A stretch of DNA of 50,157 nt, from assembly GCA_030832905.1 (NCBI GenBank), contig JAURIG010000003.1:1-50157 (forward strand), given 5' to 3'. Below the pieces are notes generated by a model. The model saw only the letters and a program-made list of their open reading frames with translations, was not told where the DNA came from and made no database searches. This DNA comes from Bacteroidota bacterium. GTDB taxonomy: Bacteria; Bacteroidota; Bacteroidia; NS11-12g; UBA955. This document shows positions 33,862 through 38,932 of this stretch, in pieces. The translations under genes were made by a program, and so were the position numbers. How positions within the stretch are numbered: the stretch's first letter is position 1; every line of letters begins with the position of its first letter.

Positions 33862-33948
33862 GGTGAGGTGACTGAGAGGCCGAAAGTAGCAGTTTGCTAA
33901 ACTGCCGTACGGGAAACTGTACCGAGGGTTCGAATCCCTCCCTCACCG
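33862..33948 (+). tRNA. tRNA-Ser (anticodon GCT)
   Basis: GGTGAGGTGACTGAGAGGCCGAAAGTAGCAGTTTGCTAAACTGCCGTACGGGAAACTGTACCGAGGGTTCGAATCCCTCCCTCACCG; class II variable arm; anticodon GCT. Confidence 0.96.
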
Positions 33949-34078
33949 CTTTAAAACATAAAAAAAAGCCCGCCAAGGGCTTTTTTTTATGCAACAAATT
34001 TTCCTAGGAGGGATAAGAACCCGAGCAGAGGGTTCGAGCCGAGCTTGCGAGACCACGAAGTAATCCCTCCCTCACCGC
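33949..34078 (+). repeat. tRNA-Ser-tail repeat unit U0
   Basis: Terminator hairpin + caacaaattttcctagg + GGAGGGATAAGAACCCGAGCAGAGGGTTCGA[GCCGAGCTTGCGAGACCACGAAGTA]ATCCCTCCCTCACCGC. Confidence 0.92.
33961..33989 (+). terminator. tRNA-Ser terminator (hairpin of repeat unit U0)
   Basis: AAAAAGCCC-GCCAA-GGGCTTTTTTTT. Confidence 0.88.
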
Positions 34079-34203
34079 AATTAAAATTAAAATAAAACCC
34101 GCTAAGGGTTTTTTTTATGCCCATTTCCTTTGGAGGGATAAGAACCCGAGCAGAGGGTTCGAGCCGAGCTTGCGAGACCACGAAGTAATCCCTCCCTCAC
34201 CGC
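34079..34203 (+). repeat. tRNA-Ser-tail repeat unit U1
   Basis: Same organisation; AAAACCC-GCTAA-GGGTTTT hairpin; identical 72-nt GGAGGGAT...CTCACCGC block. Confidence 0.92.
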
Positions 34204-34330
34204 TTTAAGACATAAAAAACAGCCCGCCAAGGGCTTTTTTTATGCAACAAATTTCCCTAGGAGGGATAAGAACCCGAGTAGAGGGTTCGAGCCGAACGAA
34301 ATGAAACAACATTAGCAATCCCCTTGGTTC
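34204..34330 (+). repeat. tRNA-Ser-tail repeat unit U2 (3' part divergent)
   Basis: Same hairpin and AGGGATAAGAACCCGAGTAGAGGGTTCGAGCCGA, then diverges: ACGAAATGAAACAACATTAGCAATCCCCTTGGTTCAC. Confidence 0.85.
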
Positions 34331-34448
34331 ACTTTGTGATTTATTATAAATCTTATAAATATAAGCTTTAAATTATTTAAAATTCATTTTTTACAATAAT
34401 GTAAATTAATTATGAATATGAATTAAAATAAAAAATAAATTACTTTTG

Positions 34449-34478
34449 TTGTTTGTTTATGTAAAATTATTATTTTTG
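34449..34478 (+). promoter_or_regulatory. Bacteroidota-type promoter upstream of the AT-rich cargo genes
   Basis: TTG (34449-34451), 19-nt gap, TATTTTTG (34471-34478); ATG at 34497. Confidence 0.55.
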
Positions 34479-34496
34479 CATAAAATATATTAAAAC

Positions 34497-34954
34497 ATGA
34501 TTAAACAAATTACATTAACTTTATTACTAGTTTTAACGTTTAAAACTTCTCATGCAAGGCCTATTATCAATAAAACAGTTAATGATTGTGGTAAAAACCT
34601 GTTAGGCCAAGTAATGTGTGGTCATGTAAAACAAGAATTAGTTATTTATCAATGTGGAACAGTTGCTGAGCCCAAAAACTGTGAAGGGTGGGTACTAACA
34701 TGTTCTGGCTCAGGAACAACAGCCTATTGATGCAAATTCTCAATCTATAAATGATGCTATTGATGATTATTGGGGTAATTTTCTATTGGACTTAGCCAAT
34801 AATTATATAGACAATAATGTCCTAACTGGAACACATTCGGAAACTGTTGTGATTTCTGATCAAACAGTTAGAATTTATACCGTTGTTTGGAGTATTACTA
34901 TTGATGTGAACGGTAATGCAAACGGTTATGTAAGTGTTTCATGTAATGTCTAAA
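34497..34954 (+). pseudogene. Small secreted protein ORF, probably frameshifted (two overlapping-frame segments)
   Basis: 34497-34730 encodes MIKQITLTLLLVLTFKTSHARPIINKTVNDCGKNLLGQVMCGHVKQ...CSGSGTTAY*; the +1 frame then stays open as ..AQEQQPIDANSQSINDAIDDYWGNFLLDLANNYIDNNVLTGTHSETVVISDQTVRIYTVVWSITIDVNGNANGYVSVSCNV* with no good start codon. Confidence 0.55.
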
Positions 34955-36049
34955 TCATACAATTTTAAATATTGTGTTCTGTTATTGCTTTTTATTGCTT
35001 TTAAAGCAATTGAAAGTCATGCTACACAGAATTTGAAGTTTAAATACAATAAAGAAGATTTATTATACACATTTAAAAATAAGGCGGCTTCATTGACAAA
35101 ATGTATTGATAATAACTTATACATTTTAGAAAGCCAAGAAACGTTAATAGTTAAGGTTTCAAAATTTAACTTTGAAACAACTAAGTTGTCAGAATGGACA
35201 ATTGATTTGAGTCATTTAGAGTATGAAGGTATTATTGATTTTTTTATTGAAGACTCTAAATTCTATTTTCTATGTGACAATGGTACACGAATTTGTTGTT
35301 TTGATTTTGTTCAAAATAAAGAAGTTTTTAATTTTCAAATAGATAATCCTAGTTCAGTGCTTTTTGAATATACGAATATCCATGTTTATGATAAATGCAT
35401 TTACTTAGTCTTCTCGATTGATATTTCAAGTAAATCAACCGATAAACGAAATTTATTTATAGACAAATACGACTTTAAATCAAATCAAATCATTCCCTTA
35501 ATTAAACGTAAATTGAATGCCAATGTTTTTTCTATTACAAATTATTTGAATTATACGTTTAATAAAAACTTACTTTATTGTAATGATGTCTTAACTGGCG
35601 AATTAAACAACTATAATTTATTAGATTCCTTTCCTTGCCCAACAAAGCTATTTGTCAATGAATTTGATTTGAGTTTATATAAAACAAACAGAATTTCTGT
35701 TTTAGAAAATAGTTTTTCAAAAACGAATTCTAATTTATTATTAGATAGTTTAAGGTATTTTTTTGACAATGAAATAACTTCTACTTGGATAAGTACCAAT
35801 AATGGATTTGTTTGCACTCTTGACAAGCATCCATCGGATTCCTGTGTGGCAAGAATTAGAGCTATGGATATCGCAAACAATCAAAAATATTCTGTTATTT
35901 TGAGCGACAGTAATTCGAACTGTATACAACAAAAAGTTTATTTAAATTATCAGTATTTTGATGGAAAGACTTTCATTCAAGTTTATAATTATTTCGATCC
36001 TAAAACTAGTCAATCAAGTTTAAGGTACAAAGTTTTTGCCTCTGATTAA
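34946..36049 (+). CDS. Hypothetical secreted protein, orphan
   Basis: Signal-peptide-like start MSKSYNFKYCVLLLLFIAFKAIESHA; ATG at 34946 overlaps the end of the preceding open frame (AATGTCTAA). No domain recognised. Confidence 0.75.
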   Translation: MSKSYNFKYCVLLLLFIAFKAIESHATQNLKFKYNKEDLLYTFKNKAASLTKCIDNNLYILESQETLIVKVSKFNFETTKLSEWTIDLSHLEYEGIIDFFIEDSKFYFLCDNGTRICCFDFVQNKEVFNFQIDNPSSVLFEYTNIHVYDKCIYLVFSIDISSKSTDKRNLFIDKYDFKSNQIIPLIKRKLNANVFSITNYLNYTFNKNLLYCNDVLTGELNNYNLLDSFPCPTKLFVNEFDLSLYKTNRISVLENSFSKTNSNLLLDSLRYFFDNEITSTWISTNNGFVCTLDKHPSDSCVARIRAMDIANNQKYSVILSDSNSNCIQQKVYLNYQYFDGKTFIQVYNYFDPKTSQSSLRYKVFASD

Positions 36050-36065
36050 ATTTAAATATTGATTA

Positions 36066-36156
36066 AAGATAAAACAGAACCCGCCAAGGGCTTTTTTTAT
36101 GCAACAAATTTTCCTAGGAGGGATAAGAACCCGAGCAGAGGGTTCGAGCCGAGCTT
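36066..36156 (+). repeat. tRNA-Ser-tail repeat unit U3 (truncated), on the far side of the cargo
   Basis: GATAAAACAGAACCCGCCAAGGGCTTTTTTTATGCAACAAATTTTCCTAGGAGGGATAAGAACCCGAGCAGAGGGTTCGAGCCGAGCTT matches U0/U2, then similarity stops. Confidence 0.9.
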
Positions 36157-36289
36157 AACACTTTCTAATTGAAAAATCCATAAAAACCATTCGTATTAGG
36201 GGATTAGTTATACCCCTAAAACTTGTCGATAAATTCAACTGCGAGGGTTTCTTTTAGGGCATTAAAAGCTGTAATATTGTTCATCGATT

Positions 36290-38932
36290 ATGAACATCAA
36301 AGATTGTTTCAAATTCAGAGACATTAAAATTTATGGCAGCACCGAGTGGTTGGCCAACAATGCCAAGCGTTACCGTTCAGTTTTTGACGAACAAGAAGCC
36401 GCATTCATCTATTGCGAATTCTCCTTTTTCAACAAAAAATACGACGAGGAAAATTGGGATATCAGACTGCATTTAAAATGTTTGAATGAACAGGACGAAG
36501 AAATTTGCGATCTAAACTGTGACAGACCAATAGACAAACGCGACAACATCGTATACATACGCGAAGGCTGGGGCGTTAAAACACCCTCTACCTACTGGAA
36601 AGCCGGCACCTACCGTTGGGAGGCCTATCTAAACGAGGAACTCATTGCCACAAAAAGCTTCTACGTAGAACGCCAAGGCTTGGTAAAGAACGGCATCAAC
36701 CCCTACTTCAAAATCGACACCCTCAAATTGTACGAAGGCCCAGACGCCAACCTACAAGAGATCGATAGAAAATATTATATCGGCTTCAATGCCCTCAGTA
36801 CCCGTTACATTTGGATAGAATTCAATGCCAAAAACCTAACGCGTAAAAGCACTGACTGGGCCTGCGAACTCAGCTTCAACTTCAAAACCGCTTCAGGACA
36901 TTTAAAAGGTGCTGCTACAAAACTCTTCTTCATCAAACCTGACGAAGACCAATTCACAACCAGCGTAGGTTGGGGCAGCGACATGCTAGGCACCTGGGCA
37001 AGAGGTCGCTATTACATTGAAATCATTTTCATGGATGAACTCATTGCCAGCGTACCATTCGAAGTAGGCGACGACTATGTTGATGCCATAGAAGAAGACT
37101 TTATGCCACTAGTTCAATCAGGCTTCTACTTTGATGCAGACATGAGCCTTGAGGAAGATGAATTAGACAACATCGCTGCAGAAACCAAAGACTTCAACCC
37201 ACCAGCCAAAGACTCCATAGACAATGTCATGAAAGACCTTGACGATATGATTGGACTTGGCAGCATCAAAGAAAAGGTAAGAGAATACAGCAATTACTTA
37301 AAATTCATAGCCCTCAGAAAAGAGAAAGGGGTATCAGACAACGAACACATCAACCTACACGCCGTATTCAAAGGCAACCCTGGAACAGGTAAAACCACTG
37401 TAGCCAGAATGCTAGGCCGCATATACAAAGAACTAGGCCTCTTAAAGAAAGGCCATGTACATGAAGTAGACAGAGGCGACTTGGTAGCAGAATTCATAGG
37501 TCAAACCGCGCCTAAAACCAAAGAAGCCATTAAAAAAGCAAAAGACGGCATACTCTTTATTGACGAAGCCTACTCGCTTGCAAGAAAAGACGATGACAGC
37601 AAAGACTTTGGCAAAGAAGCCATCGAGATCCTCTTAAAAGAACTCAGTGACGCGCAAGACATTGCCATCATTGTAGCTGGTTACCCAACAGAAATGAACA
37701 CCTTCTTGGAATCTAATCCAGGTTTAAAATCAAGGTTTAACATGACCTATGACTTCCCAGATTATTTACCACAAGAACTCATTAAAATTGCTGAATATGC
37801 TTGCGACAAACGCGGCGTTAAACTCAGCAAAGACGCCAGCGAAGACTTATACAAACACCTCGTTGACGCCTACAGAGACCGCGACAAATTCTTTGGCAAT
37901 GCGCGTATGGTCAATTCCCTAATCGATGAATTCAAAATGAATTTAGGTTTGAGGGTCATGAAAACCAAAGACCCAAAACAACTCACCGTTGAATCACTCA
38001 GCACCATTGAGAAAGACGATATCGAAAAGGCCTACTTGAAACACAAAGGTGACGTTGCAGACATTCCAATTGATGAAGAACTCCTTAAAGAATCAGTTCA
38101 AAAACTTAAAAAGCTTACTGGTTTAGCCCAAGTAAAAGCAGACATAGACGAACTCATCAAACTGGTAAGGTATTACAAAGAAACAGGTAAAAACCCAAGA
38201 GAAATCTTCTCTTTGCACTCTGTATTTACAGGTAACCCAGGTACAGGTAAAACCACTGTTGCCCGCATATTGGCTCAAATCTACAAAGCCCTTGGCATAT
38301 TAGAAAGAGGCCACTTAGTAGAATGCGACCGTCAATCATTGGTGGGAGGATACATTGGGCAAACCGCCATCAAAACAGCTGAGTTAGTTGACAAAGCAAT
38401 GGGTGGTGTATTGTTCATTGACGAAGCCTACGCCCTCACTGAAGGTGGAGGCAACGACTATGGCAAAGAAGCGGTTGAAACCTTACTCAAACGCATGGAA
38501 GATCAACGCGGCAAATTCATTGTTATAGCAGCAGGTTACACCCAAAACATGGAACGCTTCTTAGAAGCCAACCCTGGTTTAAAATCAAGATTCGACAGAA
38601 CCTTCAAGTTTGAAGACTTCAACCCTGAAGAATTATTAGGCATAGCCATACAACAACTCGCTGACCACAACATCACACCAGACGACGCTGCGAAAAACCA
38701 ACTTAAAGCCTACATAGAATACTTGTACAAGAAACGCGACAAGTACTTTGGCAATGGTAGAGCCGTTAGAAAAGTGATTGAGGAAGCTGTAAGAAATCAA
38801 CACTTGCGCCTCAGCGAAATGGCCAAAAGCAAGCGCAGTGCTAAAACCATTGGCACGCTATTGTTTGAAGACGTAAAAGAATTTACCCCAGACAACATCC
38901 CAACTCAAAAAACAGGCATCGGATTTAAATAA
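36290..38932 (+). CDS. Tandem CbbX/SpoVK-type AAA+ ATPase with duplicated N-terminal module
   Basis: 880 aa; Walker A GNPGTGKTTVARMLGRIYKELG and GNPGTGKTTVARILAQIYKALG; Walker B GILFIDEAYSLA and GVLFIDEAYALT; N-terminal ~300 aa carries two GWG...W..G.Y..E....ELIA repeats. Confidence 0.9.
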   Translation: MNIKDCFKFRDIKIYGSTEWLANNAKRYRSVFDEQEAAFIYCEFSFFNKKYDEENWDIRLHLKCLNEQDEEICDLNCDRPIDKRDNIVYIREGWGVKTPSTYWKAGTYRWEAYLNEELIATKSFYVERQGLVKNGINPYFKIDTLKLYEGPDANLQEIDRKYYIGFNALSTRYIWIEFNAKNLTRKSTDWACELSFNFKTASGHLKGAATKLFFIKPDEDQFTTSVGWGSDMLGTWARGRYYIEIIFMDELIASVPFEVGDDYVDAIEEDFMPLVQSGFYFDADMSLEEDELDNIAAETKDFNPPAKDSIDNVMKDLDDMIGLGSIKEKVREYSNYLKFIALRKEKGVSDNEHINLHAVFKGNPGTGKTTVARMLGRIYKELGLLKKGHVHEVDRGDLVAEFIGQTAPKTKEAIKKAKDGILFIDEAYSLARKDDDSKDFGKEAIEILLKELSDAQDIAIIVAGYPTEMNTFLESNPGLKSRFNMTYDFPDYLPQELIKIAEYACDKRGVKLSKDASEDLYKHLVDAYRDRDKFFGNARMVNSLIDEFKMNLGLRVMKTKDPKQLTVESLSTIEKDDIEKAYLKHKGDVADIPIDEELLKESVQKLKKLTGLAQVKADIDELIKLVRYYKETGKNPREIFSLHSVFTGNPGTGKTTVARILAQIYKALGILERGHLVECDRQSLVGGYIGQTAIKTAELVDKAMGGVLFIDEAYALTEGGGNDYGKEAVETLLKRMEDQRGKFIVIAAGYTQNMERFLEANPGLKSRFDRTFKFEDFNPEELLGIAIQQLADHNITPDDAAKNQLKAYIEYLYKKRDKYFGNGRAVRKVIEEAVRNQHLRLSEMAKSKRSAKTIGTLLFEDVKEFTPDNIPTQKTGIGFK

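Follow-up and report, generated by a model that had tools for sequence, protein, structure and literature searches.

The tRNA-linked repeats (TLRs) of Escherichia coli K-12 comprise 22 copies at ten loci (Egan and Landy 1978; Rudd 1999; reviewed in PMC8144298) and are defined by an 18–19-bp 3' end that exactly repeats the 3' end of the tRNA or rRNA located upstream. They are without known function, and an early role in the stringent response was withdrawn (PMC8144298). The rRNA-linked members RrA, RrB, and RrF (RrA/B/F) lie between the T1 and T2 terminators. Read-through produces their transcripts, which undergo processing and bind Hfq and CsrA, and their tail was put forward as an RNase E site (PMC8144298). 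The structure of RtT, the repeat at E. coli tyrT, has been discussed (PMC8250186), some Enterobacterial attenuator candidates were linked to rtT (PMC2965389), and RtT was reported to be cold-induced in Thioalkalivibrio (PMC8092127). Our literature search for TLRs outside Enterobacterales found only this RtT in Thioalkalivibrio and no account of Bacteroidota members.

In the window (the whole 50,157-nt stretch of Bacteroidota DNA that was analyzed), repeat units follow tRNA-Ser(GCT) in the same way as TLRs, i.e., they lie 3' of a tRNA or rRNA gene, occur in one to several copies per locus, and share their 3' end with the upstream RNA. Compared to the K-12 TLRs, they differ in their phylum (Bacteroidota), their position behind tRNA-Ser, a 16-nt tail (no CCA is encoded), and a 25-nt insert. 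The array is probably a Bacteroidota set of TLRs, belonging with the RtT repeats of E. coli tyrT and made of tail-bounded modules that turn over by recombination. The TLR class is already named, and Bacteroidota is a new phylum for it. All four units of the window are located 3' of tRNA-Ser(GCT) and are given below with two paired regions, P1 (the inverted arm paired with the tail) and P2 (the same arm paired with the 5' copy of the T-arm), and with scores of R1, a covariance model built from 15 units that include E. coli RtT and none from Bacteroidota.

33862–33949, + strand: intact tRNA-Ser(GCT) (ARAGORN; Rfam tRNA, 55.6 bits)
33934–33949, + strand: tail ATCCCTCCCTCACCGC of tRNA-Ser(GCT), source of the unit tail copies
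33957–33991, + strand: intrinsic-terminator-like hairpin between tRNA-Ser and unit 1 (15-bp perfect inverted repeat with T8)
34007–34078, + strand: body of unit 1 (R1 42.8 bits, E 5.1e-6 for the whole genome; RF00391 26.2 bits, below cut-off)
34007–34014, + strand: P1 5' strand of unit 1, GGAGGGAT
34017–34022/34030–34035, + strand: P2 of unit 1, GAACCC/GGGTTC
34038–34062, + strand: 25-nt insert of unit 1, GCCGAGCTTGCGAGACCACGAAGTA
34063–34078, + strand: tail copy of unit 1, exact ATCCCTCCCTCACCGC
34094–34112, + strand: unit 2's own terminator (terminator scan)
34132–34203, + strand: body of unit 2 (R1 43.1 bits, E 4.3e-6)
34163–34187, + strand: 25-nt insert of unit 2, GCCGAGCTTGCGAGACCACGAAGTA
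34188–34203, + strand: tail copy of unit 2, exact ATCCCTCCCTCACCGC
34221–34235, + strand: unit 3's own terminator (terminator scan)
34260–34332, + strand: unit 3, diverged (R1 31.8 bits, E 0.0017)
34291–34317, + strand: 27-nt insert of unit 3
34318–34332, + strand: tail of unit 3, ATCCCCTTGGTTCAC
34333–36061, + strand: DNA between units 3 and 4 (~1.75 kb with genes)
34497–34730 and 34786–34953, + strand: small secreted-protein ORFs
34934–36049, + strand: lineage-specific 371-aa ORF (no Pfam match)
36062–36156, + strand: unit 4, truncated, with spacer, terminator, P1 5' strand, P2, and first insert bases GAGCCGAGCTT and without tail (100% over 49 nt versus unit 1; R1 26.7 bits, E 0.024)

The earlier note had described much of this array correctly: its coordinates and sequences hold, ARAGORN finds its tRNA-Ser(GCT), the 25-nt insert recurs at both of its positions and splits the T-arm copy at one point, the terminator scan places hairpins 5' of units 1–3, an outer stem and GAACCC/GGGTTC can pair, and the third unit has a different insert and tail. 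It missed unit 4, a further copy on contig C195, the 371-aa gene, and the known TLR/RtT class (RF00391, PMC8144298). All three breaks in units 1–3 fall at one T-loop point, i.e., between TTCGA and ATCC in the tRNA and between A and ATCC in the units, and the 5' strand GGAGGGAT..GAACCC pairs with ATCCCTCC and GGGTTC. The cores of units 1 and 2 are identical, with tails that reproduce 16/16 bases of the encoded end of tRNA-Ser(GCT), and units 1, 3, and 4 have a common spacer type, with another in unit 2. Counted from tail to tail, the units are 33934–34062, 34063–34187, and 34188–34317. Unit 4 shows the order terminator, GGAGGGATAAGAACCCGAGCAGAGGGTTCGAGCCGAGCTT, and then a break.

Among 59 related genomes, the 371-aa ORF has one clear relative (32%), and the secreted-protein ORF at 34497–34953 looks frameshift-split. 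Compared to three sister genomes (L015, L016, and L021), tRNA-Ser and the array are inverted (region 33862–38932) relative to a double-AAA ATPase gene (36290–38932) and the Pro/Arg tRNAs, and the break in unit 4 may be the inversion point. The antisense strand of tRNA-Ser (33897–33948) scores 48.9 bits with RF04351 (Plastid-psbl-rps4), a family that probably contains antisense tRNA-Ser.

When R1 was searched against the whole 1.95-Mb genome, five copies were the only matches at E ≤ 10 (43.1, 42.8, 31.8, 26.7, and 24.3 bits). The fifth lies on contig C195, 3' of tRNA-Ser(TGA), and is truncated at GAGCCGAGCTT like unit 4. Because this independent model matches only the window units and the C195 copy genome-wide, the array is more than a chance resemblance. 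The R1 matches show the body features of RtT in the window units (P1, P2, GAGC..GCGAG, and the junction between A and ATCC). By E-value, Rfam gave weak matches at the locus apart from the tRNA, and RtT looked chance-like until the E. coli alignment; in the genome search with RF00391, units 1 and 2 were the sole matches at E ≤ 10 (26.2 and 21.9 bits, under the Rfam cut-off of 45). A plain tRNA pseudogene and a simple attachment-site duplication, both of which the earlier note had already doubted, were ruled out: only the T-arm, the 3' end, and an inverted copy are present and ARAGORN sees no tRNA there, and the T-arm copy is split by the insert, with no obvious integrase among the ORFs listed around the array and no Pfam match for the 371-aa ORF. 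The genome is a 242-contig bin (85% complete), as an assembly artefact of a fragmented metagenome-assembled genome would have it, but the recurrence of this anatomy in complete genomes of E. coli and in numerous independent assemblies leaves that reading a negligible probability.

Comparison among units supports P1 and P2 as a putative conserved structure with stems that covary with the tRNA. The two stems form standard pairs in 91% of alignment cells, with changes on both sides in 9/14 pairs and a covariation (0.186 vs. 0.110) that was reached by 0/500 shuffles, in an alignment that was fitted to the model and favors structure, although the change of P1 with the tail between tRNA types is still visible by eye. 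When partners are shifted by one column, pairing falls to 59–71%. The structural support is comparative, because the folding energy of one unit as a single sequence is unremarkable (z −0.75, RNA). In the predicted RNA fold of tRNA-Ser with unit 1, the inverted arm could also pair with the tRNA's own T-arm. One long shot is that this arm (GGAGGGAT..GAACCC), whose sequence complements the T-arm on both sides of the junction of GGGTTCGA and ATCCCTCC, is a guide, and that TLRs are minimal mobile elements that pair with tRNA T-loops, with an enzyme acting in trans and a guide adapted to each tRNA. An intrinsic terminator was present 5' of 25 of the 61 distinct units examined, and P1 retains 7.24/8 pairs in terminator-preceded units versus 6.94/8 in the others; terminator-preceded units with intact P1 fit either read-through RNAs or a DNA-level role or origin.

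To survey other bacteria, we scanned one genome per GTDB species for the exact pattern GAACCC N3-8 GGGTTCGARCCGA. Of 67 stretches, about a third lie directly 3' of tRNA genes in Gammaproteobacteria, Verrucomicrobia, Lentisphaerae, Kiritimatiellae, and Bacteroidota, others lie behind tmRNA, and the remainder look like chance matches within genes. The pattern occurs in 7/111 genomes of the order and R1, run on Bacteroidota and 17 other genomes, has matches in 14/398 Bacteroidota genomes, frequencies that are lower bounds given this search scope and the exact pattern. Some of the carriers (several metagenome bins) may have been assigned to the wrong phylum, and the Gemmatimonadetes cases are supported by the pattern and a tmRNA-like tail, not by R1. 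Marinobacterium and Neptuniibacter units match RF00391 at 60–88 bits (cut-off 45), and the scanned units share their anatomy with the tyrT/tyrV repeats of E. coli K-12.

Rather than lying at random sites with no tRNA-end match, the outcome that the earlier note had named as counting against its reading, 67/73 R1 units have a same-strand tRNA or tmRNA ≤1.5 kb upstream, and two of the other six lie past an island inserted in the array. The upstream genes of the 67 units are of 12 kinds and include Ser (four anticodons), Tyr, Arg (CCG, TCT), Glu, Lys, SeC, Thr, Val, and tmRNA. As that note had also supposed, 3' ends match the neighboring tRNA: the mean match to the own neighbor's tail is 13.28/14 bases compared to 8.61/14 for tails of other tRNAs (67 units), with a slight bias to ATCCC-type tails among the selected units because R1 includes the tail consensus. 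The neighbor's tail outscored every sufficiently different control tail in 60/67 units, and the exceptions are mostly outermost units with decayed tails, as seen in the window and at two further loci (L094 and L106). The insertion junction is the same across all 12 kinds, and units from different phyla and behind different tRNAs have similar bodies, a hint of transfer of some kind. Insert length ranges from 25 to about 80 nt, and in an empty-site comparison within genus g5 the spacers differ.

A second repeat type was found at the same tRNA-Ser genes in L014, L016, L021, and L023 (same genus) and L155, L158, and L159 (same family). It consists of a long inverted repeat around the terminator, followed by CCTCCCCTTTAGGGATCACGAGCGAAGCGAGTA joined to ATCCC, with only the ATCCC of the tail kept in outer copies, and looks like a reduced RtT relative.

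Turnover is visible in E. coli, where a near match to the RtT unit is present in 4,703/5,426 genomes and 723 are without one. The tyrT loci of 15 strains contain 0–6 units, with tyrV present or absent, and every junction lies inside the 18-bp tail, at ATCCTTCCCCCACCACCA. The outer flank past the last tail is of two kinds with only small base changes within each, and between tyrT and tyrV a single 175-bp unit is cleanly absent in DX6 and present in K-12. Because all junctions fall in the tail and the outer flank stays put, units are gained and lost as whole tail-bounded modules, and the tRNA gene is left intact every time. Apart from unit number and tyrV, this locus (L194, L195, L198, L199, and L200–L209) varies in a 7-kb desaturase/F390-synthetase-like operon before narI.

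Each module begins at one copy of the tRNA tail and ends at the following copy (tail, spacer/terminator, inverted arm, 5' copy of the T-arm, and insert), and we propose that arrays would grow and shrink by recombination or slippage between identical tails. Such an exchange would always leave one intact tRNA 3' end beside the tRNA body; because the 3' end is always restored, proximal tails, which become or replace the tRNA's own 3' end, would stay exact, and the outermost units would decay. Tail recombination does not explain how a unit first reaches a tRNA, and the E. coli turnover may not hold for Bacteroidota. If the terminator were read through, 3' processing at the tRNA-like tail would release a small structured RNA, a scheme already proposed for E. 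coli RrB, and turning-over modules would then possibly yield processed RNAs.

It is conceivable, if doubtful, that the units are instead kept as small regulatory RNAs co-transcribed with the tRNA, with the tail as processing signal and P1, P2, and the insert as the active fold. Compensatory changes in the conserved stems would suit this role, as would the annotation of E. coli RtT as processed from the tyrT transcript, the transcription and protein binding of RrA/B/F, and the reported cold induction, but it fits poorly with the many E. coli genomes without a near match (and strains that, read directly, have no tyrT units), the terminators ahead of 25/61 units, the variable insert length, and the withdrawal of the stringent-response role.

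Of the three proposals in the earlier note, a structured RNA gained support from the covariation and a recombination target from the tail-bounded junctions of the E. coli strains, whereas autonomous mobility gained no direct support: no unit contains an integrase or transposase, the unit pattern is absent from 2.9 million viral contigs (pattern scan), and BLASTN of the array against phages and plasmids returned nothing relevant. We therefore consider it unlikely that units are mobile elements that enter the T-loop between TTCGA and ATCC with their own copy of the tRNA 3' end, repairing the gene and leaving the newest copies beside the tRNA. Such elements would account for the one fixed junction in 12 kinds of tRNA/tmRNA, the clean present/absent pairs (K-12 vs. 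DX6 and L124 vs. L130), the patchy distribution (7/111 genomes), and the decayed outermost tails; however, tail recombination yields the same pairs, and the crossover shares just 2–3 bases, unlike a tyrosine integrase overlap. L124/L130 was downgraded as an empty-site pair because its shared flank is the end of a P4-type integrase island. The attR-like overlap identity of only 2–3 bp led us to reject a tyrosine-integrase reading, and no supporting enzyme was found for serine-integrase, integron attC, or IS200/IS605-like readings.

Islands do occur at these tRNA genes. In Neptuniibacter pectenicola, a 5.4-kb island (L189 1368 onward, L094 1–5880) lies within the TLR array at tRNA-Arg(CCG), ends in a contiguous 41-bp tRNA-Arg fragment, and carries a unit on the island side; its genes are a UvrD-like helicase and three unknown ones, and no integrase was seen in it. 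The closely related N. marinus carries a single unit and then the same outer flank, and therefore islands can carry units along, which we infer to be one possible route of spread. In G341, a P4-type integrase island with integrase, AlpA-like, and primase/helicase-like proteins (L160 15100–18989) is located directly 3' of tRNA-Ser(GCT), its far end showing neither another tail copy nor another unit within 30 kb, and in G199 the truncated start of a G341-type integrase is fused to the left half of a unit. The N. pectenicola and G341 islands would be expected if units were scars (attR remnants) of integrative islands targeting tRNA 3' ends. This reading is already disfavored and very improbable, since the attR-like copy of the island is an unbroken 41 bp, the unit T-arm is split by an insert with an inverted copy ahead, and the unit body is conserved and covarying.

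The function of TLR/RtT repeats has been unassigned since 1978, and they were known mainly from E. coli and relatives. The same anatomy now extends to Bacteroidota, Verrucomicrobiota-type lineages, and other Gammaproteobacteria and to at least 12 kinds of upstream tRNA/tmRNA genes. Nearly every well-formed unit has a tail that agrees with its local tRNA, and the stems covary with that tRNA. E. coli strains provide a natural copy-number series (0–6 units at tyrT); therefore, the choice between regulator and recombination debris is directly testable in laboratory strains.

Among the known systems, RtT RNA (RF00391; E. coli tyrT/tyrV, rttR) shares with the window units P1 with the tail, the P2 hairpin, GAGC..GCGAG, the junction between A and ATCC, and the tail-to-tail module, whereas the window units are compact, lack insert hairpins 2 and 3, and are preceded by intrinsic terminators. 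P4-type integrase islands at tRNAs likewise create a second copy of the tRNA 3' end while the tRNA stays intact, but with a contiguous duplicate and an encoded integrase, neither of which units have. RrA/RrB/RrF (rrnA, rrnB, rrnD) are of the TLR class, lie behind the first terminator, and copy the 3' end of the upstream RNA (5S) like the window units, but have no P1/P2 arm; by eye, they have only a GTTGC..GCAACGGCCCG.AGGG stretch in common with RtT. R1 does not match rrnB, and TLRs may include more than repeats with the RtT body, since these tail-sharing repeats escape the model. The E. coli rrnB T1-T2 region (L213 290–480), a widely used terminator cassette, has GTTGCGAAGCAACGGCCCGGAGGG, a hairpin pair that also occurs in the RtT insert, together with the 5S tail repeat. 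The window order of tRNA, terminator, unit, terminator, and unit resembles rrnB T1-TLR-T2, and low-level read-through transcripts are therefore plausible.
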